From assembly GCF_022758235.1 (NCBI RefSeq), contig NZ_JALEBG010000001.1, positions 2,356,001 through 2,420,000 of the forward strand: a stretch of 64,000 nucleotides of DNA, given 5' to 3'. Positions 12,578 through 23,356 of this stretch are shown in pieces. How positions within the stretch are numbered: position 1 is the stretch's first letter; each line of letters opens with the position of its first letter. Origin of the DNA: Pontibacter liquoris (GTDB taxonomy: Bacteria; Bacteroidota; Bacteroidia; Cytophagales; Hymenobacteraceae). The translations under genes were made by a program, and so were the position numbers. Under the pieces are notes generated by a model. That model saw only the letters and a list, made by a program, of their open reading frames with translations, had not been told where the DNA came from and did not search any database.

Positions 12578-13387
12578 TTACGGCAGCTCTGTGGCAATGA
12601 TCGCTTCCACTTTATACTCCTCCGCCATATCTCCGAACACATCAAACGTATTGTGGAAGCTCTCAAATTCTTTGAGCAACTTATACTGGGCCACGTGGTA
12701 GAGCAGGAAAAGCTCCGACTGGGTAAAGCTTGCCTTGGTAATAAAGCTGTAGTATTCTCCCTCGTCCTGCGCTTCGGAGCGGTAGCGCTGGATCAACTTG
12801 AAGAGTACGCTCAGGTTTTTGAGGTAGGGATTGAGGCTGGACTGGTAAAACTGAAAATGGTAAATAAAATACTCCTGGAAAACCCGTGAGAGGTGCTCGG
12901 GTGTTTTTTCGGCAGGCGCCATCGTGCGCACATGCTGCACAAAAGAGGACATGACCTTCTCCTGAAAAAAGACAAAGAAATTAGTGCCTGACCAGGCGCT
13001 GTTGTTGATGTCGTAGGCGGTGAGCGAGCTGATGATCTCGTCGTGCTTGCTGATGAAGCTGATAAAGAGGGTCGAAAAGTTCTGCTGCTGGTAGATGCGC
13101 TGCGTTTTATGCAACTCGATGCGCTGCAACTCGAATTCGTTTTTCTGGTAAGTCAGCGTAGCAAAGAAGAGGAACACACCGGCCAGGGCCCAAAGCGAGC
13201 CCACAATGCCGCCGATAAACTCGCCATACTCGCCAAACACATTTCCTTTGCGCTGTTCCGGCTCCAGGTATAGCTCGTGCAGGAGGTTGAATTTGATGGT
13301 GCCCCAAACAAGGACGATGGTGCCGGCAATGATGAGCAGGTAGCCGGTAAGCTCATAAGCACTAAGCTTTAATTTTGGTGCGGACAT
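12578..13387 (-). CDS. PutAbiC-like membrane protein (possible abortive-infection protein)
   Basis: A 269-residue protein with two N-terminal membrane helices (about residues 14-33 and 58-80), followed by a charged coiled-coil segment rich in Glu, Gln and Lys and a mostly helical soluble domain. The layout resembles the putative phage abortive infection family (PutAbiC, PF16872): GEFIGG before helix 2, an E/Q-rich coil after it, the FSTLFISFISKHDEI segment, and a late SELFLLYHVAQYKLL segment. That name was given by similarity, and most members are uncharacterised. It sits between the che operon and the polyamine operon, 51 bases after cheC on the same strand, so cotranscription with cheC is possible. 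Confidence 0.6.
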   Translation of the reverse strand: MSAPKLKLSAYELTGYLLIIAGTIVLVWGTIKFNLLHELYLEPEQRKGNVFGEYGEFIGGIVGSLWALAGVFLFFATLTYQKNEFELQRIELHKTQRIYQQQNFSTLFISFISKHDEIISSLTAYDINNSAWSGTNFFVFFQEKVMSSFVQHVRTMAPAEKTPEHLSRVFQEYFIYHFQFYQSSLNPYLKNLSVLFKLIQRYRSEAQDEGEYYSFITKASFTQSELFLLYHVAQYKLLKEFESFHNTFDVFGDMAEEYKVEAIIATELP

Positions 13388-13438: not shown

Positions 13439-14113
13439 TTACTCGGTTTCCAGCATCGGGTTATTTTCGGTGCCGAACGAGCGGATGATATCGAGAATTT
13501 TAAGCAGCGTAGACGTATCGAAAAAGAGCAGCAGCGGTAATTCCACACTCTTGAAATTATGCGTGAACTGGGTAATGACTGTGAACACCAGCGGCTGGAA
13601 AAGCGGGTGTTGCACCAGAATATCCTTTAATGAGTCGGCAATGTGGCTTTTTGGCAGCCGGGGAGGTGAGCCGTAGATATCGGCTTTCAGGATGTTGGCC
13701 AGCTGCGTGACCAGCGCCCCGGTTATGATGTTACTGATCTCGAGCAGCAGCGATTCCTGCATCACCGAGAGCTCTCCTTTCTGCACGTCGATCATACTCA
13801 GGCATACTTCCGAAAGGCGTACGATATGATCGTCGGAAAAAAGCATGAGGGTGGCGCCGTTAAAATCGCCTTTGATGTCGGAGAGAATGATCGTATGGGT
13901 ATCCTCATAGCGGGATACCAGCTGCAACAGGTCCTTTACCTCTATCAGCTGAATATCCGGAACTTTGAGCAGCACTTTATCCCGGGCCACCACTGCAAAG
14001 GAATCTGCTGCACGAGCAAGCCCGATATTGAGTATTTCTTTGATGATATCGCGCTCTAACTCTGAAATCTGAGGTTCCACCATACTTAGTAAATTCTTAG
14101 TTCCCTTAACCAT
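13439..14113 (-). CDS. cheC: CheC-family chemotaxis phosphatase
   Basis: About 224 residues with the duplicated CheC/CheX/FliY fold. Both phosphatase signatures (E-x2-N followed by Pro) are visible: EILNIG with a later VP in the N-terminal half, and EISNII with a later PP in the second half. Two intact sites suggest an active CheY-P phosphatase. It is the last che gene of the operon. The ATG at 14111-14113 overlaps nothing and lies 11 bases after the cheA stop; a second ATG at 14081-14083 is also possible. A start at 14179 inside cheA is unlikely. No CheD gene, the usual partner of CheC, is present. Confidence 0.82.
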   Translation of the reverse strand: MVKGTKNLLSMVEPQISELERDIIKEILNIGLARAADSFAVVARDKVLLKVPDIQLIEVKDLLQLVSRYEDTHTIILSDIKGDFNGATLMLFSDDHIVRLSEVCLSMIDVQKGELSVMQESLLLEISNIITGALVTQLANILKADIYGSPPRLPKSHIADSLKDILVQHPLFQPLVFTVITQFTHNFKSVELPLLLFFDTSTLLKILDIIRSFGTENNPMLETE

Positions 14114-14124
14114 CGACGCACTCT

Positions 14125-15759
14125 TTACCTTCTGTTTATAAAAAATCGCGTGATTGCCGGTACATCCAGTACCAGGCAAACCTTTCCGGTGCCAAGCAAT
14201 GTAACGCCTCCATAGAGGTCAATGTTTTCAAGTGGTTTGCTCAGGGGCTTCACCACTATATCTTGCTGGCGGTATAATTTATCTACAATCAGCCCTAACT
14301 TCCGGTTGTTGTACGCCACCACAATGATGTTCTGTACATTTCCTTTCAGCCGGGATTTGTCACCAAGTTTCATATTGGCCTCATCGGCATTTAAAAGCTC
14401 GTGCAGGTAAACTACCGTCACGGTCTCTCCTTTGATATCGGCTACCAGCATATCGCCCACTTCGTGCAGCTCATCGATGTCCATGGCCACCACCTGGTCG
14501 GTATGGATCAGTGGAATGCCGAAGAAGATACTGTCCACTTCAAAGAGCAGGGCGCCTTTTACCGCAATAGAAGTCGGCAGGCGCATGGTAAAGGTTGTTC
14601 CCTTGTTTCTTTTGGAGTCCACCTGCAGGCGGCCGCCAATCGAATCGATCGCATTCTTCACCACATCTAGCCCTACGCCCCTGCCCGAGAATTCGGTTAC
14701 TTCGCGGGCCATGGAGAAGCCGGGCTCAAACAAGAACGAGAGCACCTCCGACTCCGACAAGTTGCTGGCAACATCCGCTGACACCAGGTGCCGCTCTACC
14801 GCTGCGCGTTTTACCTGTTTCAGGTCAATGCCTTTGCCATCGTCTGTCAGCGTAATCACCACATTCTCGCGGTCGCTGCGGGCGGTAAGCGTCAGGTTAC
14901 CCGTTCCGGGCTTGTTGTTTTTTTCCCGCTCGGCCGGTGCTTCAATCCCATGGGTAATGGCATTGCGCACCAGGTGCAGCAACGAGTCGGTAATGATCTG
15001 TAGAATGTTCCGGTCGATCTGGATGTCCTGACCTGTCAGCTCCAGGTTTACCTTCTTTTTCTCAGCTACAGCAATATCGCGCACCACACGCGGAAATTTG
15101 TTAAAGAGCGTGCCTATACTTACCAGGCGGGCATCCATCACGCTATACTGCAGCTCGTCGGTAATGCGGTAAAGGTGCGAACTAACGGTCTTTAACTCAT
15201 CATTTTCTGTTTCGCGACTAATCGAAAGGATGCGGTCGCGGTCGATCATCAGCTCGCCCACCAGGTTCATCAGGTGATCTAGCTTCTTGATCTGAATGTA
15301 GATCAGGTCAGAGAGCGACAGGTTCTTGGAAGTATGATACTTCTGTACCTTGGCCAGTTCAATGGTGCTGTCTGATAGACTGTCTACAATAATATCCAGG
15401 TTGCGCAACAGCACCGGATCGGGTTCTCTGGCGGACTCATTGTCGATGTTGGTGATCAGCTCACCCAGCATGTCAATGCCGTCAAAAAGTACCGTTACCA
15501 CCTCGTCGCTAAAGCTGAGCTCCTTGTTGCGGATCAGGCTAAAGGCCGTTTCGAGCTTGTGCGACACATCCGAGATCTGCAGGTAGCCGATGGCTTTTGC
15601 ATTCGCCTTCAGGTTATGCAGCAAACGGAAGATCTCCGCCAGGGTCTGATCGTCCTGTGGCTGTTTCTCCAGTACGCTGATATGCCTGTTCAGCGCATCG
15701 TAATATTCGAGCGCTTCAGCGATAAATATCTCTTTGTATTCCTGTTCTCTCGATTTCAT
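14125..15759 (-). CDS. cheA: Chemotaxis histidine kinase CheA without a P2 domain
   Basis: A 544-residue CheA. P1/Hpt domain: residues 1-110 with phosphorylated His48 in LLHNLKANA. P3 dimerisation helices: about 150-220. P4 ATPase: about 225-400, with HLVRNAITHG, DDGKGID and GRGVGLDVV. P5 CheW-like domain: about 400-544. CheA proteins with a CheY/CheB-docking P2 domain are usually 630-700 residues long; here P1 and P3 are separated by only a short linker. The start overlaps the cheB stop (ATGA), showing translational coupling. It phosphorylates CheY and possibly CheB in response to the array built on the upstream receptor. Confidence 0.93.
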   Translation of the reverse strand: MKSREQEYKEIFIAEALEYYDALNRHISVLEKQPQDDQTLAEIFRLLHNLKANAKAIGYLQISDVSHKLETAFSLIRNKELSFSDEVVTVLFDGIDMLGELITNIDNESAREPDPVLLRNLDIIVDSLSDSTIELAKVQKYHTSKNLSLSDLIYIQIKKLDHLMNLVGELMIDRDRILSISRETENDELKTVSSHLYRITDELQYSVMDARLVSIGTLFNKFPRVVRDIAVAEKKKVNLELTGQDIQIDRNILQIITDSLLHLVRNAITHGIEAPAEREKNNKPGTGNLTLTARSDRENVVITLTDDGKGIDLKQVKRAAVERHLVSADVASNLSESEVLSFLFEPGFSMAREVTEFSGRGVGLDVVKNAIDSIGGRLQVDSKRNKGTTFTMRLPTSIAVKGALLFEVDSIFFGIPLIHTDQVVAMDIDELHEVGDMLVADIKGETVTVVYLHELLNADEANMKLGDKSRLKGNVQNIIVVAYNNRKLGLIVDKLYRQQDIVVKPLSKPLENIDLYGGVTLLGTGKVCLVLDVPAITRFFINRR

Positions 15760-16877
15760 ACGGCGGTGCCAGTGGCACTAACTACGTCCTGCCGGGCTGA
15801 TAACCGGTTTAAGTAATGCGGAATATCAGCTAAAGGCAGTACCTGATTGGTAAATCCACTGTCGATGGCGGATTTAGCCATCCCGAAAATCAGGGATGTT
15901 TCTTCGTCCTGGGCGATCACGAGCCCGCCCCTGCTCTGGATGTGGCCTGCGCCTTTGGTGCCATCTTTTCCCATGCCGGTAAGGATGACGCCAATTACCT
16001 GTTTTACCTCGCTTTCAGCAACCGACTGCATCAGCAGGTCTATACTTGGCTGATCGAAAGAGTCCGAAGGCTCCGTGGAAAAACCAACTTTTAGATTGGC
16101 CTTATTGCCCATTACAGGGACTACCACTATGTCTTTGCCTCCTGGCGCCACGATGATCTTGCCTTGTTTGAGCAGGAGTCCTTCGCGGCCTTCCTCCACT
16201 TTCAGCTTCGTGAGCTCCCGTAAACGGGCAGCAAACGATTCGGTAAAGCTCTTCGGCAAATGCACCACTATCACCACGGCCGCCTGTAGCATGGGCGATA
16301 ACTGCTTTACAATCGTTTCAAGAGCCTGCGTGCCCCCGGTAGAGGCTCCGATCACAATGACCGTTTCCGGTGCGCCCTTCAGGCGCTTTGCAGGAATCAA
16401 GGGTAAAAAGGACAATTCCTGCTGCAATTGCGCCAGGCGCTCTTTCGAGTCCCAATGCGGCGTATGCCGCACTGCCCGTACTTTTGAAATAACTTCCGAA
16501 GCAATGCCGCGGTAGTTAGTATAGTATGCGGGACCCGGTTTCAGCACGATGGCATATACGCCCAGTTCTGTAGCCTGTTTTACCAGCTCCAGCGACAGCT
16601 TTTCTTTTGCTATCAGCAGGATCACCGGTGTGGGCTTTTCACTAAAAATGCGCTTCAGCACCAAAAAATCCCGGTTGTCGGGCAGCATGTTATCCAGTAC
16701 CACCACATCCGGCTGCTGGCTGTGTAAGGCAGCCAGCAACTCATCGGCCCCTGCTGCCTGGCCCTTCACACCCATATCCTGCTCGGCGCTGATGATATCG
16801 TCGAGCACCAGCCGGTGGTAACCGGATGAAACAGCAATAATTACTTTGATCTTCTCCTGCACGCTTCTTCTCTCCAA
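15756..16877 (-). CDS. cheB: CheB receptor methylesterase with a degenerate receiver domain
   Basis: About 373 residues: an N-terminal receiver (residues 10-125), a linker, and a C-terminal CheB methylesterase/deamidase (about 172-360). The catalytic triad is present: Ser179 in GASTGG, His206 in VVHLP and the Asp in GKDGT. The receiver keeps the phospho-acceptor position (Asp62) and the KP lysine (Lys113). It lacks the acidic pair after strand 1, where the sequence reads IIAVSS instead of the usual VDDS, and it has Ala at the conserved Thr/Ser position. The start is uncertain: TTG at 16875-16877 or GTG at 16860-16862; no ATG is available. It should remove methyl groups from the poly-HAMP receptor. 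Confidence 0.88.
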   Translation of the reverse strand: MERRSVQEKIKVIIAVSSGYHRLVLDDIISAEQDMGVKGQAAGADELLAALHSQQPDVVVLDNMLPDNRDFLVLKRIFSEKPTPVILLIAKEKLSLELVKQATELGVYAIVLKPGPAYYTNYRGIASEVISKVRAVRHTPHWDSKERLAQLQQELSFLPLIPAKRLKGAPETVIVIGASTGGTQALETIVKQLSPMLQAAVVIVVHLPKSFTESFAARLRELTKLKVEEGREGLLLKQGKIIVAPGGKDIVVVPVMGNKANLKVGFSTEPSDSFDQPSIDLLMQSVAESEVKQVIGVILTGMGKDGTKGAGHIQSRGGLVIAQDEETSLIFGMAKSAIDSGFTNQVLPLADIPHYLNRLSARQDVVSATGTAV

Positions 16878-16913
16878 AAGGGGTAAAAATTACTGCCTGA
16901 GACGGAAATTTAT

Positions 16914-17288
16914 TTAAGCCTGCGGTGTTTCAGCAAGTACTTTGCTCACTACCTCCAGCACTTTCTCTTCCGAAAAAGGTTTTACAATGTAAGAGAGGGC
17001 GCCATATTCCATCGCTTCGTTCACGATCACCTCCTGGCCTACTGCGCTTACAATGATCACTTTCATGTCCGGCTGGTCTGCCTTTATGCCTTTCAGCACA
17101 TCCAGGCCGGTATTATCGGGCAAGATCACATCCAGCGTGATCAGGTCCGGCTGAGTCGACTTGGCCAGTTCAAGGGCTGTCTGCCCGTTCGGGGCCTCCC
17201 CAACTACTTCGTAGCCGGCATCCGTCAACATGTTCTTCAACATGGTGCGCATGTAGAAGGAGTCATCAACGATCAAGATTCTTTTCAT
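16914..17288 (-). CDS. cheY: Single-domain response regulator CheY
   Basis: A 124-residue stand-alone receiver with every conserved residue: Asp8 and Asp9 (metal), Asp53 (phospho-acceptor), Ser81 and Lys103. It ends directly after helix 5 and has no output domain, as in CheY. No flagellar genes are present, and relatives of this group do not swim, so the output is probably gliding, type IV pili or a non-motility function. It lies between cheW and cheB in the operon, with gaps of 32 and 36 bases. Confidence 0.92.
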   Translation of the reverse strand: MKRILIVDDSFYMRTMLKNMLTDAGYEVVGEAPNGQTALELAKSTQPDLITLDVILPDNTGLDVLKGIKADQPDMKVIIVSAVGQEVIVNEAMEYGALSYIVKPFSEEKVLEVVSKVLAETPQA

Positions 17289-17320
17289 ACTATAAGGTAT
17301 AATTTCTGTTGGTTAGCTGC

Positions 17321-17896
17321 CTAAGCAGTAAGCTGTAGCACTTCGTCATTGGTCAGGATCCGGAGCATGTCCAGTACAATGATCAGCCGGTTATCTACCT
17401 TCGCAATGCCTTCGATGTAGTTTTCGTGTATGCCGATGTCCTGCAGAAACGAAGGTGCTTTATCTATTTTAGACATCGGCAGGTTCAACGACTGCGGCAC
17501 TTCCCGCACCATCACCCCGATCTTGTAATCCCTGGCCTCAATGACGAGGGTATAAGATAAATTAGGATTTACGTCTTCCGGCATTGGCGCCGGGCGGATA
17601 CCAAAACGGTCCTCCAGGCTCATGATGGCAATAATATCACCCCGGATATTGGCTACTCCTTTTACAAAATCAGGTGTGCGCGGCATACGGGTAATGCCGG
17701 GGGTTACGGTTACTTCCCGCACCTGCTCGATCTTAATGCCATACTCCTCGGCGCCCAATTTAAATACGATCAGGTGCACCATCACTTCCATGGCAGGCTG
17801 CCTCTCTGAGGCTGCATCGCCTGGATTATCGGCAGGAGTGGCATTCGCAGCAGTATCTACTGCTGCGTCCTCCTCTTTATTTCCGTGCTTTACCAT
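17321..17896 (-). CDS. cheW: Chemotaxis coupling protein CheW
   Basis: A 191-residue CheW with an extra N-terminal tail of about 40 residues rich in Asp, Ala and Asn, followed by the usual two-barrel fold (VFKLGAEEYGI, then VKGVANIRGDIIAIM, and ending near DMLRIL). It links the receptor to the P5 domain of CheA. Its ATG shares one base with the stop of the receptor gene (TAATG), so the two are tightly coupled in translation. The acidic tail is unusual for CheW, but no known motif is visible in it. Confidence 0.92.
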   Translation of the reverse strand: MVKHGNKEEDAAVDTAANATPADNPGDAASERQPAMEVMVHLIVFKLGAEEYGIKIEQVREVTVTPGITRMPRTPDFVKGVANIRGDIIAIMSLEDRFGIRPAPMPEDVNPNLSYTLVIEARDYKIGVMVREVPQSLNLPMSKIDKAPSFLQDIGIHENYIEGIAKVDNRLIIVLDMLRILTNDEVLQLTA

Positions 17897-20800
17897 TATT
17901 TATTCTTTCCTTCTCCCGCTGCCCGGGTGCCTTTATCCCGTGAACCTGTCGCCATTCTGCTGTTACCGGTCGAGGTCTTCAGCATTTTCTGTGTCGTAGG
18001 AATAGAGGTTAGGCGGCGGTTCTTACCGTTGTTAAAGATCAGGTTTCCATCAATCAGCTTGAAGGCCGAGATACTGATCTGCAGATCGGCTGCAATATCG
18101 TTCAGGTTCTGAGAAGACGAGGTGAGTTCCTGCATCGAAGCGGAGAGCTGCTTGGCTGTGCTGGCCACCTGCTGCGTACCAGATGCGGTCTGCTCAGCAA
18201 TGGCTACCACTTCTTCCACATACTTCACCACATCCCCGATAGAGGTTTTCTGTACTTCGGTTGCCGTTAAGATGTCCTGCGCTGTTCGGAGCGTTTCACC
18301 GCTGGAGGCGGCAATGTTCTTAAAGGCGCCGGATGCTTCAAACGTTGCATTCTTTCCTTTTAACACGCGGCCTTCCATGGTCGAGATCGCCGTTGCGGCA
18401 GAGGCCGTATCTTTTTTCACGTCTTCTACCAGCGTTGCAATCTCATTAGCTGACTTGCGTGAGCCTTCTGCCAGCTTCCTGATCTCTTCGGCTACCACAG
18501 CAAAGCCTCGACCGGCTTCCCCGGCACGGGCTGCTTCGATGGCCGCATTCAGGGCAAGCAGGTTGGTCTGAGAAGCAATATCGGTGATCACACCCAGAGA
18601 TTTGGAAATTTCCTGGGAACGTATACTTAATACCTCAATGGTTTTGGCTGTCAGGGCAGCAGAACTGGAGATCTCTTCCATGTTCTTCACCACCTCGGCT
18701 ACCGTTTTGAGACCCAGCTGCGAGGTTTCCTCACCAACTTTAGCAGACTTGTTCACTACTTCTGCCCGGTTGGCCGTTTCCTTCGTTGCGTTCATGATCT
18801 CTTCGATCAGCTTAAAGGCCTGGTCTGTTTTAAGGGCCTGGTTTTGGGCCCCTTCTGCCATTTGCTGCATGGCCAGGGCTACATCTAGGGTCACTTTGTT
18901 CATCTCCAGCCCTTTGCCAGCCATTTCTTCGGAAGAGCCTCCTACTACCAGCGAGGAATCGTTGATCTCCCCAAGCAGTGCATTCAGGTTTTCTACCGCA
19001 AGGTTCAGGGCATTAGCCATATCGAGGATATCACCTACCGATTTGATCTCCACCTGCTGAGTCAGATCACCTTCGGATATGGCGCGCACCACACGGGATA
19101 CTTCCAGTACCGGCGTCACGATGGACTCCAGCAGGTCGTTCAGTGTATCCACCAGTTCTTTCCAGCTACCGCCAACTCCTTGCAGGGTTGCACGCTCGGT
19201 CAGTTTGCCTTCCACACCCGCTACTCTTGCCACGCGGCTAACCTCACCCGCCAGGCGGTTCAGGTCCACCACCATGGTGTTGATTGTATCGGCCAGTTCG
19301 GCTACTTCTCCTCTGGCTTCCAGCGTCAGTTTCTGCGTCAGGTCACCTTTGGATACAGCTGTTACTACTTTTACGATGCCCCGCACCTGCGTTGTCAGGT
19401 TGCTGGCCATCGTATTTACGTTGTCGGTCAGTTCTTTCCACACACCGCCCACGTTTGGCACGTTGGCCTGGCCGCCCAGTTTACCTTCCGTACCCACTTC
19501 CAAGGCTACCCGCGAAACCTCACCGGCAAAGATATTCAGCGAGTCCACCATGCGGTTGATGTTTTCCTTCAACTCGCCCAGCTCTCCTTTCACATCCACC
19601 GATACTTTCTGCGTTAAGTCGCCTTTGGATACGGCGGTGGCTACCTTGGCAATATCTCTTACCTGTAAGGTAAGGTTAGAGGCCATGGTGTTCACGTTGT
19701 CAGTCAGTTCCTTCCAGGTACCGCGTACTTTCGGCACATTGGCCTGGCCACCCAATTTACCTTCGGTTCCTACCTCACGCGCCACACGGGTTACTTCATC
19801 AGCAAATACGTTAAGTGAGTCCACCATCTGGTTCAGGTTCTCCTTCAGGTCCAGTATCTCACCACGTGCTTCTACTGATACTTTTTGCGTCAGGTCACCT
19901 TTCGCCACAGCGGTAGCAACCTTGGCAATATCGCGCACCTGCGAGGTCAAGTTGCTGGCCATGTAGTTCACGTTCTCCGTCAGGTTCTTCCAGGTACCAC
20001 CCACGTTCGGCACATTTGCCTGGCCGCCCAGTTTACCTTCAGTTCCTACTTCACGCGCCACACGCGTTACTTCATCACCAAATATATTCAGGGAGTCCAC
20101 CATGAAGTTGAGGTTCTCCTTGAGTTCAGCAAGTTCACCACGGGCTTCCACCGCAATTTTCTGAGTCAGATCGCCCTTCGCCACACCAATGGCTACCTTG
20201 GCTATACCCCGCACCTGTATGGTTAGGTTAGAGGCCATGGTATTTACGTTATCGGTCAGATCCTTCCATACACCGGCCACGTTTGGCACGTTAGCCTGGC
20301 CACCCAGCTTTCCTTCTGTACCCACTTCGAGGGCCACACGCGTTACCTCACCGGCAAAGATATTCAGCGAGTCCACCATGCGGTTGATGTTTTCCTTCAA
20401 CTCGCCCAGTTCTCCTTTCACATCTACCGATACTTTCTGGGCCAGATCACCTTTCGCCACCGCGGTTGCTACGTTGGCAATGTCGCGCACCTGCGAGGTC
20501 AGGTTGCTGGCCATCGTGTTCACGTTGTCGGTCAGGTCCTTCCATACACCGGCCACGTTTGGCACATTGGCCTGGCCACCCAGTTTACCTTCTGTACCTA
20601 CTTCACGGGCTACACGGGTCACCTCATCACCAAAGATGTTGAGCGAGTCCACCATCTGGTTCAGGTTTTCCTTCAGGTCGGCTAACTCGCCTTTCACATT
20701 CACTGTAATCTTCTGGCTCAAGTCACCTTTCGCTACGGCTGTTGCTACATTGGCAATATCCCGTACCTGTAAGGTCAGGTTAGAGGCCATGTAGTTTACG

Positions 20801-22458
20801 TTATCCGTCAGCTCTTTCCAGATGCCGGCTACGTTCGGCACGTTGGCTTGGCCACCCAGAATTCCTTCGGTGCCTACCTCACGTGCTACACGCGTTACTT
20901 CCGCGCCAAACACGTTCAGTCTGTCCACCATCTCATTGAGAATATCTTTCAGCTCACCCAGTTCGCCTTTCACGTCCACTGACACCTTCTGGGTCAGGTC
21001 GCCTTTTGCCACCGCAGTTGCTACGTTGGCAATGTCGCGCACCTGCGAGGTCAGGTTGCTGGCCATCAGGTTCACGTTATCGGTGAGTTCTTTCCAGGTG
21101 CCTTCTACTTTCGGTACTGTTGCCTGGCCGCCCAGTTTACCCTCTGTTCCTACTTCACGGGCAACGCGCGTTACCTCACCGGCAAAAATGTTGAGCGAGT
21201 CCACCATCTCATTGATGATGTCTTTGAGCTCGGCCATTTCGCCCTTTACATTTACCGTGATCTTCTGGCTCAGGTCGCCTTTTGCAACCGCGGTAGACAC
21301 GTTGGCAATATCCCGCACCTGCGAGGTCAGGTTGCTGGCCATGTAGTTCACGTTATCAGTCAGGTCTTTCCATACCCCACCTACGTTTGGTACATTGGCC
21401 TGGCCGCCCAGTTTACCTTCTGTACCTACTTCACGGGCCACACGGGTTACTTCGTCAGCAAAGATGTTGAGCGAGTCCACCATCTGGTTCATATTGTCCT
21501 TCAGCTGGGCAAACTCACCGCGTACATCTACCGATATCTTCTGCGCCAAATCGCCCTTGGCCACCGCAGTAGCCACATTGGAGATGTCACGCATCTGCAA
21601 GGTCAGGTTATTGGCCATGGTGTTCACGTTGTCGGTCAGGTCTTTCCACACACCGGCCACGTTCGGCACCGATGCCTGGCCACCCAGCTTTCCTTCCGTT
21701 CCCACTTCCAGGGCCACACGCGTTACCTCACCGGCAAACAGGTTCAGGTTATCGATGGTACGGTTAATGGTTTCGGCCATTATTTTAAAGTCACCCGATA
21801 CCGGGATCTGGAATGTTTCGTCCAGGTTACCGCCCGAGATATTCTTTAGTACTTTACCCACCTCCAGTACCGGCACCGCAATCGAATCTACCAGGCCATT
21901 GATGTTGTTGATCATGTCCTTCCAGAAGCCCGATGCATTTTCGGCAGAAGCCCTGGCCTTCAGGTTTCCTTCTACCCCAGCTACTTTCGAAATACGCGAC
22001 ACCTCGCCACCTACCCCACCAATCATCTCCACCATGGAGTTGTAGGCTTCGGCGATCTCGGCAAAAATGTCGTTGTTCTGTTTTGTCAGACGAACAGAGA
22101 TATCCCCTTTCTTAAAGGCATCGAGGGCATAAAGCACTTTATTCAGTTGCTCGCTGATGTATTCAGGGCTTTGGGGCAGTTTCTGTTTGCTGACAGGCGC
22201 CGGCGCTTCGGCAATGGCAGCAGCGCCTCTGGCCGAAGAGGCATTCGCCGCTTTGTTGGCCGCTACTTTCGAATTGCCTTGTATGCTCCCGTTGCCGTTG
22301 GTGGCTGCCGGGGCACCGGCAGGCGCTTCGGATAAGGTAGTGGTAGCAACGGGGCCTGTTTCTTGTTTTGCCTTTGGGACAGAAATCTTGTTTGTGTTGG
22401 CTTCTACGTCACTGATGAGCTTGTCTTTGCTCAACTTCAAATTTTTACCTAAGGCCAT
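17896..22458 (-). CDS. Soluble poly-HAMP methyl-accepting chemoreceptor
   Basis: A 1520-residue receptor with no membrane segment and no signal peptide. Residues 1-100 are low-complexity (Ala, Pro, Asn and Lys, starting [14 protein letters not shown]). Residues 105 to about 1150 are a chain of HAMP units: nine near-identical 92-residue copies, each marked by EVGTEG(K/I)LGGQA, flanked by more divergent copies marked by VAGVEG. The rest is an MCP signalling domain with the intact kinase-binding tip ([19 protein letters not shown]), followed by a basic, Gly-rich tail. HAMP repeats of this sequence type are known from fungal group III (Nik1/Os-1) kinases and some bacterial proteins. Relatives act in osmosensing, but the stimulus here is unknown. 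ParA upstream and cheW downstream suggest a cytoplasmic array. Confidence 0.93.
19330..21810 (-). repeat. Nine tandem 276-bp coding repeats (HAMP units) inside the receptor gene
   Basis: The block encoding GQANVPNV recurs every 276 bases (for example, GCCTGG at 19466, 19742 and 20018). Nine copies share most amino acids but differ at many synonymous sites. This points to old duplications kept by selection, not to a recent expansion. Confidence 0.9.
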
Positions 22459-22609
22459 ATGTGTGTAATTGAGTTGGGTCTTTTAAACCTGCATTATAAG
22501 CAGAAGCACGCGCCGGTATCAGGTCCTTGCGCACAGTCAGGCATGAAAGTTTATGCAATTTAATCAATTTAATTGAATGCTTAAAATAGCGTTGCTGCGG
22601 ATTTGGATA

Positions 22610-23356
22610 TCAGGCCCCCGCAAACTCCTCAGCCAGTGCCCGGTAGTCTTTTGCGCCATGGGAGGAGGGTTCATAATCCAGCACGCTTTTGCCAAATGAG
22701 GGGGCTTCGGCAAGCTTCACATTTAGGCGTATCTGGCTTTTAAATATGCGTTCCTTCACATTTTCGTGTAGGTATTCGAGCACTTCCTGGCTCAGTTTAC
22801 GACGTATATCAAACATGACCACTACGATGCCTTTAATTTTAAGTTTCGGGTTAAAAGCTTTTTTAACTTTTTGCACCGTATTCATGATCTGGTCCAGCCC
22901 CTGCAGGGTCAAAACTTCCATCTGCAGCGGAATGAGCACTTCCTGTGCAGCTGTAAGCGCATTCAGCGTTAAGACCGACAGGGAAGGTGGACAGTCGATG
23001 AGCACATAATCGTAGGACTTTGCCTGCGTTAGCATCTTTTTAAGAAACAATTCCCGTTCGGGTTGCTGCACCAGCGAGATCTCGATATCCACCAGGTCGT
23101 TCGACCCCGGCGCGATCCAGATGCCATCCTTCTCCACTACGATGTCCTCCAGTGACTTATTTCCCAGAAAAACATCGGCCAGGGTATCCTGCGGCCGCGA
23201 AACGGCCAGCGAATACGACAGGTTACTTTGCGGGTCCAGGTCTAGCAGCAGTACTTTGTGGCCTAATTTGCTCAGGGCGCTGCCCAGGTTAATGGTTGTA
23301 GTTGTTTTTCCAGTGCCGCCTTTCTGGTTGATGACAGCGACGATGGTTGTTCTCAT
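22610..23356 (-). CDS. ParA/Soj-family ATPase at the head of the che operon
   Basis: A 248-residue deviant-Walker ATPase with KGGTGKTTT at residues 12-20, DLDPQ at the A' position and VLIDCPPS at Walker B. The ATG at 23354-23356 puts the Walker motif at the usual distance; a GTG-like start nine codons upstream is unlikely. No parB gene or parS-like site is visible, and the next gene on the strand is the soluble chemoreceptor, 151 bases away. ParA homologues next to cytoplasmic chemoreceptors (PpfA in Rhodobacter, ParC in Vibrio) position chemosensory arrays. That role is the most likely here, by context. Chromosome or plasmid segregation is the alternative. Confidence 0.85.
   Translation of the reverse strand: MRTTIVAVINQKGGTGKTTTTINLGSALSKLGHKVLLLDLDPQSNLSYSLAVSRPQDTLADVFLGNKSLEDIVVEKDGIWIAPGSNDLVDIEISLVQQPERELFLKKMLTQAKSYDYVLIDCPPSLSVLTLNALTAAQEVLIPLQMEVLTLQGLDQIMNTVQKVKKAFNPKLKIKGIVVVMFDIRRKLSQEVLEYLHENVKERIFKSQIRLNVKLAEAPSFGKSVLDYEPSSHGAKDYRALAEEFAGA

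Follow-up and report, generated by a model that had tools for sequence, protein, structure and literature searches.

A conserved N-terminal receptor peptide as candidate docking tag for a dedicated ParA in a soluble chemosensory system of Pontibacter liquoris

ParA-type ATPases position many cargos, and one of them is encoded beside a giant soluble chemoreceptor within a chemosensory gene block of Pontibacter liquoris (Bacteroidota; Cytophagales; Hymenobacteraceae). The question raised by this locus is what the ATPase acts on and which part of its partner it might recognize. It is examined here in a window of 64,000 nucleotides (assembly GCF_022758235.1, contig NZ_JALEBG010000001.1, positions 2,356,001 to 2,420,000 of the forward strand); all coordinates below are positions in this window, and the block occupies 13439-23356 on the minus strand. 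The reading favored here, at a probability of roughly 75%, is that the soluble array is positioned and partitioned by its own dedicated ParA, with receptor residues 1-15, referred to below as the tag, serving as the docking peptide. The tag is probably ATPase-activating toward ParA, and by analogy with PpfA/TlpT of Rhodobacter sphaeroides the ParA most likely positions the array on the nucleoid.

From its N-terminus, the receptor comprises 15 conserved residues and a variable linker, then 11 HAMP repeats and a methyl-accepting chemotaxis protein (MCP) signaling domain. Among 47 receptors of the genus, mean pairwise identity is 96% over residues 1-15 and 97% over the first HAMP repeat, compared with 30% over the linker (residues 20-98). 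The original prediction had described a low-complexity N-terminus; residues 1-15 are in fact near-invariant, and the low-complexity stretch comes after residue 15. The pattern MALGKN[LM]K[LM][SN]K[DE]KLI opens all 53 readable receptors from ParA-positive genomes of the family (47 from the genus, six from elsewhere in the family), which were chosen through a HAMP motif and thus independently of the tag. Four family receptors from genomes lacking this ParA begin differently (MAPGKTTKN..., MASAKTNKT..., MASGKNSKP..., MASPKTPQT...), and their signaling domains are 87-90% identical to that of the window receptor. The tag is also absent from the receptors of ParA-less genomes in other families (L061, L063, L064 and L068), which makes eight out of eight examined receptors of ParA-less genomes, on at least three branches. 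In known partners of ParA/MinD ATPases, a short charged peptide at the N-terminus activates the ATPase, and the cargo part comes after it (PMC7993993, PMC10241942). The tag is read as a ParA-docking peptide because its layout of peptide, variable linker and cargo fits these known partners.

Across the order, presence of the tag coincides with presence of this ParA. The ParA was called at E <= 1e-84, since the model used in a search of the phylum failed to tell Soj apart from this lineage, and it was found in 54 of 390 genomes. The DNA pattern of the tag occurred at 80 places in 78 genomes, with 15 for the backward control. After inspection, a genuine tag was retained in 51 of the 54 genomes with this ParA and in 2 of the 336 without it; counted by genus, the figures are 15/16 and 2/113. 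Places that were not inspected individually were accepted when their coordinates lay within 400 bases of ParA. Tag and ParA adjoin in 48 of the 51 genomes and lie on different contigs of draft genomes in the remaining three (G077, G510, G562). Pattern matches occurred in 25 of the 336 ParA-negative genomes, all of which were inspected: in 22 they were rejected as lying inside or antisense to other open reading frames (ORFs), and another (G545, MAIGENIRKIRELKG), at the start of a 123-residue protein resembling a helix-turn-helix regulator by eye, was judged a chance match. The two that were kept are a PAS protein cut by a contig end (G585) and a tag adjoining a divergent ParA (G494), which scored 7.8e-78 and was hence missed by the cut. 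In the sample of 395 genomes from the phylum, which holds few members of the order, the tag search gave seven matches in six genomes (backward control, 3); only the match in the window is a gene start beside parA, and the other six fall within other ORFs or antisense to them.

Trees of the receptor and of ParA are consistent with this pattern. In a receptor tree of 39 rows, hand-chosen to span lineages, the state of having neither ParA nor tag has to change four times, and supported branches force three of these changes. The ParA-less genera of the family probably lost ParA and tag, because they are nested inside ParA-positive genera. The ParA tree comprises 102 sequences, namely all 80 loci obtained by scanning titled genome records against the ParA alignment (the best 80 of 571 loci) and 22 others, with several long branches flagged. 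The closest neighbors of the window's ParA in it come from named Pontibacter species. A supported branch (96/94) divides the tree: 52 ParAs near a tag, three with a tagged receptor elsewhere and four that are tag-less stand on one side; the other side holds 43 ParAs, including four Soj, none of them tag-associated. The 80 loci were labeled by a motif search of the 1.5 kb downstream, the remaining 22 by hand; for L172 the label relies on a non-adjacent gene roughly 1 kb downstream (MPIGKNVNLQDR). As far as these sequence comparisons go, the tag tracks this ParA rather than the receptor.

The tag is also found on proteins of other kinds that adjoin this ParA, where its consensus is roughly MALGxNhKKDKLIP. 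The carriers are PAS receptors, CheW proteins (four loci), STAS-like proteins and PAS-only proteins. Among the best 80 of the 571 loci, tagged poly-HAMP or PAS receptors follow parA in Pontibacter, Rufibacter, Adhaeribacter, Flammeovirga, Ohtaekwangia and others, and a tagged CheW-domain protein follows it in Reichenbachiella, Marinoscillum (which has two), Ekhidna and one Cytophagaceae genome. A search with ParA alone led to a locus (L090) in which parA stands beside a 215-residue protein starting MALGENIKRERMIP, which matches PAS weakly and MCP not at all; the top CheA match of that genome (G084) is 6.3e-7, at the level of histidine kinases only. Similar proteins come after parA in G499, G524 and G550. 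In seven uncultured genomes (L173, L175, L177, L189, L202, L176 and L185; some record labels look doubtful), a tagged protein precedes cheY. The Pfam STAS match of the L173-type protein is below the cut-off; its model has a mean predicted local distance difference test score (pLDDT) of 68, and the STAS reading was kept because a fold search returned SpoIIAA/STAS-like matches (best E 8e-6). The proteins of L185 and L176 align to that of L173 at 24% identity, and that of L185 has no Pfam match. At these seven loci, parA and the STAS-like gene precede a second type of che cluster, with cheY, a cheA of about 690-700 residues, cheW and often MCPs, some of which have a likely membrane segment by eye.

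In 32 collected tagged starts, the commonest residues at positions 8-14 are K-[KR]-[DE]-[KR]-L-I-P; G4, N6 and the ranges at positions 2, 3, 5 and 7 are no test of conservation, because they were partly fixed by the search motif. A wider proposal can be built on the carriers: a Bacteroidota ParA lineage, with Elusimicrobiota outliers, would read roughly MALGxNhKKDKLIP as a portable N-terminal code that has moved among receptors, CheW proteins, STAS-like proteins and PAS proteins lying outside chemosensory clusters, so that the ParA positions any carrier, and the ParA-less relatives in the family would have lost the code and gained a basic nucleoid-binding motif instead. This extension is tentative, with chances put slightly below even. 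If the swappable tag is real, the cargos of one ParA lineage could be read from genomes, and a ready peptide would be at hand for structural and ATPase work on ParA triggering. Spatial control of chemosensory arrays would also extend to bacteria with gliding-type motors, in which chemosensory output is poorly known.

The gene block and the parts of the receptor are as follows.

22610..23356, minus strand: parA, 248 residues from a conserved ATG, with the deviant Walker A motif KGGTGKTT (AAA_31, 8.6e-54)
17896..22458, minus strand: soluble chemoreceptor of 1520 residues, poly-HAMP and MCP signaling domain (HAMP_2 1.4e-107, MCPsignal 8.5e-40)
22414..22458, minus strand: N-terminal tag, receptor residues 1-15, proposed ParA-docking peptide (from conservation and co-occurrence with ParA)
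22165..22413, minus strand: variable low-complexity linker, receptor residues 16-98 (from identity within the genus)
18982..22161, minus strand: HAMP chain, 11 repeats of 92 residues (from Pfam and repeat spacing)
18202..18750, minus strand: MCP signaling domain, receptor residues 1237-1419 (Pfam)
17321..17896, minus strand: cheW (Pfam)
16914..17288, minus strand: cheY (Pfam)
15756..16877, minus strand: cheB, receiver and methylesterase (Pfam)
14125..15759, minus strand: cheA without P2 domain (Pfam)
13439..14179, minus strand: cheC with two phosphatase sites (Pfam and site motif)

ORF calls and Pfam bear out the seven minus-strand genes where the original prediction had placed them, as well as the overlaps it had named, of one base between the receptor stop and the cheW start and of four bases between cheB and cheA. 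The parA start is taken at the ATG at 23356, which is also the start in relatives; the TTG chosen by the ORF caller would add nine residues. CheA has Hpt, dimerization, ATPase and CheW domains with a gap of 56 residues between Hpt and dimerization domain and, as predicted, no Pfam match to P2. The two sites claimed for CheC were likewise recovered: the phosphatase site motif [DES]xxxExxNx22P occurs in it twice, in exact form. The receptor of 1520 residues has no membrane segment (maximal 19-residue Kyte-Doolittle mean 1.35), again in agreement with the prediction; its HAMP chain had been counted as nine units and contains 11, spaced exactly 92 residues apart (11 HAMP_2 and 10 HAMP stretches in Pfam). 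It is the sole MCPsignal match in the genome and holds all 11 of its HAMP_2 matches. By motif count, the repeat number varies across the family from about 8 to 15 units, and the exact length of the receptor therefore seems unimportant. In two loci (L092, L095) the receptor is split into two ORFs, perhaps through assembly error within the repeats. Next to cheC lies a putAbiC-like gene (12578-13387, Pfam 1.6e-5), as in many Pontibacter loci, and a relative is found near the unlinked parA of G077 (L089). Rfam and transfer RNA scans of the window returned nothing.

The link between ParA and receptor, on which the original prediction depended, is conserved in relatives. This ParA is present in 50 of 50 Pontibacter genomes and shares a contig with cheA in 47, the two being on separate contigs in G005, G019 and G041. 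CheA relatives occur in 93 of 99 genomes drawn from genus, family and order, the weak matches among them being ordinary histidine kinases; strong matches are present in all 50 genomes of the genus and all 11 others of the family. The typical family order is topA / sixA-parA-receptor-cheW-cheY-(cheB)-cheA-cheC, and the conservation of the block across the genus argues against a chance arrangement. In the rest of the family, ParA is present in seven of 11 genomes; the four that lack it (G052, G053, G057, G058) retain receptor, cheW, cheY, cheA and cheC in unchanged order.

In the proposed mechanism, many copies of the tag would be displayed on the array through the variable linker and would bind ParA dimers in the ATP-bound state, with the nucleoid as the most likely site. 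The tag would then trigger ATP hydrolysis and ParA release, and the array would be moved, spaced or split by a ParA gradient mechanism. The HAMP chain and the MCP hairpin would signal via CheW and CheA to CheY, CheY would be dephosphorylated by CheC, and the receptor would be adapted by CheB together with a CheR encoded elsewhere; CheR matches outside the block are ORFs of 281 and 1384 residues. Of the 59 family loci examined (the window, L039-L059 and L092-L128), 14 showed no cheB in the interval separating cheY from cheA, and methylesterase adaptation therefore seems dispensable. We infer the binding, ATPase stimulation, nucleoid attachment and positioning in this scheme; each Che protein is given the function typical of its family. 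The genome encodes GldL, a component of the motor for gliding and the type IX secretion system (T9SS), which makes that motor a candidate output; its control by CheY is only a possibility.

Several observations weigh against a tag read by a dedicated ParA. The lineage is patchy, occurring in the minority of the order's genomes given above, and Fisher p-values for the co-occurrence overstate significance because the counted genomes are related. Three genomes (G487, G512, G520) have this ParA with no tag found by the order-wide pattern search; G487 and G512 had antisense matches only and were scored as tag-less. In Fulvivirga marina (L225), parA adjoins a tag-less receptor, the start of which has a weak globin match under the Pfam cut-off. 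Some tags carry little charge, whereas the peptides of known activators are basic, and the tag of L330 has a net charge of 0. In the window, parA and receptor are separated by 151 bases, which leaves a common transcript uncertain, although one is assumed here. AlphaFold gave no usable structure for receptor residues 1-400 (pLDDT 36).

Three other explanations of the locus were considered. The ParA might place the array at the membrane or the pole, in the manner of MinD or ParC, and not on the nucleoid. ParC does put arrays at the poles in Vibrio and Halothiobacillus (PMC10241942), and T9SS motors, the possible output, are located in the envelope. However, this ParA aligns over its full length with Soj-type chains and has no C-terminal extension, and the receptor is soluble, so that placement at the membrane or pole is considered unlikely.

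It is still harder to credit that the receptor N-terminus binds DNA directly and that ParA is incidental. In FrzCD of Myxococcus, positively charged residues 1-30 and two HAMP domains lead to nucleoid arrays (PMC12077210), and the tag does contain lysines. Its net charge over the first 15 residues is nevertheless only mildly positive (mean +2, range 0 to +5, in the 32 tagged starts), and acidic residues are common at positions 5 and 10. The tag is also lacking in the eight examined receptors of ParA-less genomes and present on non-receptor proteins beside parA. The original prediction had allowed that the peptide could either stimulate a ParA ATPase or bind DNA; the former fits the order-wide association with ParA, while the latter is disfavored by the low charge and by the loss of the tag where ParA is missing. 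The four ParA-less family receptors (L056-L059, from G052, G053, G057 and G058) have a basic R[KR][KR]GxxRG ahead of the first HAMP, a motif seen in 4/4 of them and in 0/53 ParA-positive receptors. It would suit direct DNA binding in those genomes, where it may stand in place of ParA.

The weakest alternative, that this ParA serves DNA partition and is merely a neighbor of the che genes, is highly improbable: it is Soj-like in sequence, its nearest solved chains being a ParA family protein (8ray) and a segregation protein (1wcv), and two of its Elusimicrobiota relatives lie near small proteins that look ribbon-helix-helix-like by eye (the next gene in L198, about 1 kb downstream in L172), but the block contains no parB, the genome's ParB directly adjoins its other close ParA, Soj, at a separate locus (parS was not searched for), this ParA has stayed beside che genes in Pontibacter as well as at many loci across the order, and the tag accompanies ParA on chemosensory proteins. 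The original prediction had named a parB partner for this ParA as a point that would count against it, and the only pairing seen is that of ParB with Soj. Positioning of the array by a dedicated ParA through the tag remains the preferred reading.

Small proteins accompany several other ParAs. The Elusimicrobiota proteins just mentioned have about 110 residues and tag-like starts (L172:2873-3205, MPIGKNVNLQDR; L198:6527-6862, MAMGKNVNLKDR), with no Pfam match for the body. A second ParA of family f43 (L137, L138, L141, L144) is followed by a protein of 88-119 residues with a MSKKKSLGHNPLAY-like start in three of four cases, another putative ParA-partner pair with a basic-LG N-terminus. ParAs of Pedobacter (L207, L209, L212, L214, L222, L244) are followed by a protein of about 85 residues that mostly carries MAKKNLGDIEDNNKNLGGVSALFNSP, the one in L207 giving a weak ribbon-helix-helix match.

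Parts of this picture are already known: ParA in che operons, soluble arrays placed by ParA homologues, and HAMP-bearing nucleoid receptors (FrzCD, PMC12077210). The original prediction held the combination of ParA with a poly-HAMP chemosensory system to be undescribed, which overstated its novelty, as a 2010 survey found a ppfA homologue in a che operon without parB in 77 of 206 species (PMC2829493). In the open-licence literature, in which peptide motifs are not text-searchable, no description of the tag or of the Pontibacter ParA-che block was found. A close counterpart is PpfA/TlpT, where a parA homologue likewise lies in a che operon, with no parB, beside the gene of a soluble receptor, and the N-terminus of TlpT is thought to activate PpfA (PMC3964821). 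The Pontibacter system differs in its 1520-residue poly-HAMP receptor (TlpT has 567 residues), in a Walker A of KGGTGKT where KGGVGKT is listed for PpfA (PMC9178275; compared by published description), in a conserved tag that also occurs on CheW, STAS-like and PAS proteins, and in the presence of a gliding-motor gene in the genome. ParC/ParP of Vibrio likewise involves a che operon that encodes a ParA-like ATPase (PMC9178275), and there the adaptor ParP enters the array (PMC5706961), whereas in Pontibacter the receptor itself bears the tag. No ParP-like extra CheW protein is present in the block, where CheW domains are confined to cheW and cheA (the ParP sequence was not compared); a role resembling that of ParP may fall to the tagged CheW proteins at loci of the Reichenbachiella type. 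FrzCD of Myxococcus xanthus, a gliding bacterium, is also soluble, with HAMP domains separating an N-terminal tail from the signaling domain (PMC12077210), but it binds DNA directly, whereas here a ParA partner is proposed and the tag is mildly basic. ParB, MinE, PomX and McdB are modular partners that activate through a short charged peptide at the N-terminus (PMC7993993), and the ParB of this genome opens with basic residues and then GLGRGLNSLL, comparable to the tag by eye. ParA partner proteins are far less conserved than the ATPases themselves (PMC7993993). The tag differs from the activators of ParA/MinD ATPases in being one peptide family on at least four cargo types, tied to one ParA lineage, and what seems new is this use of an N-terminal peptide as a portable tag on different proteins.

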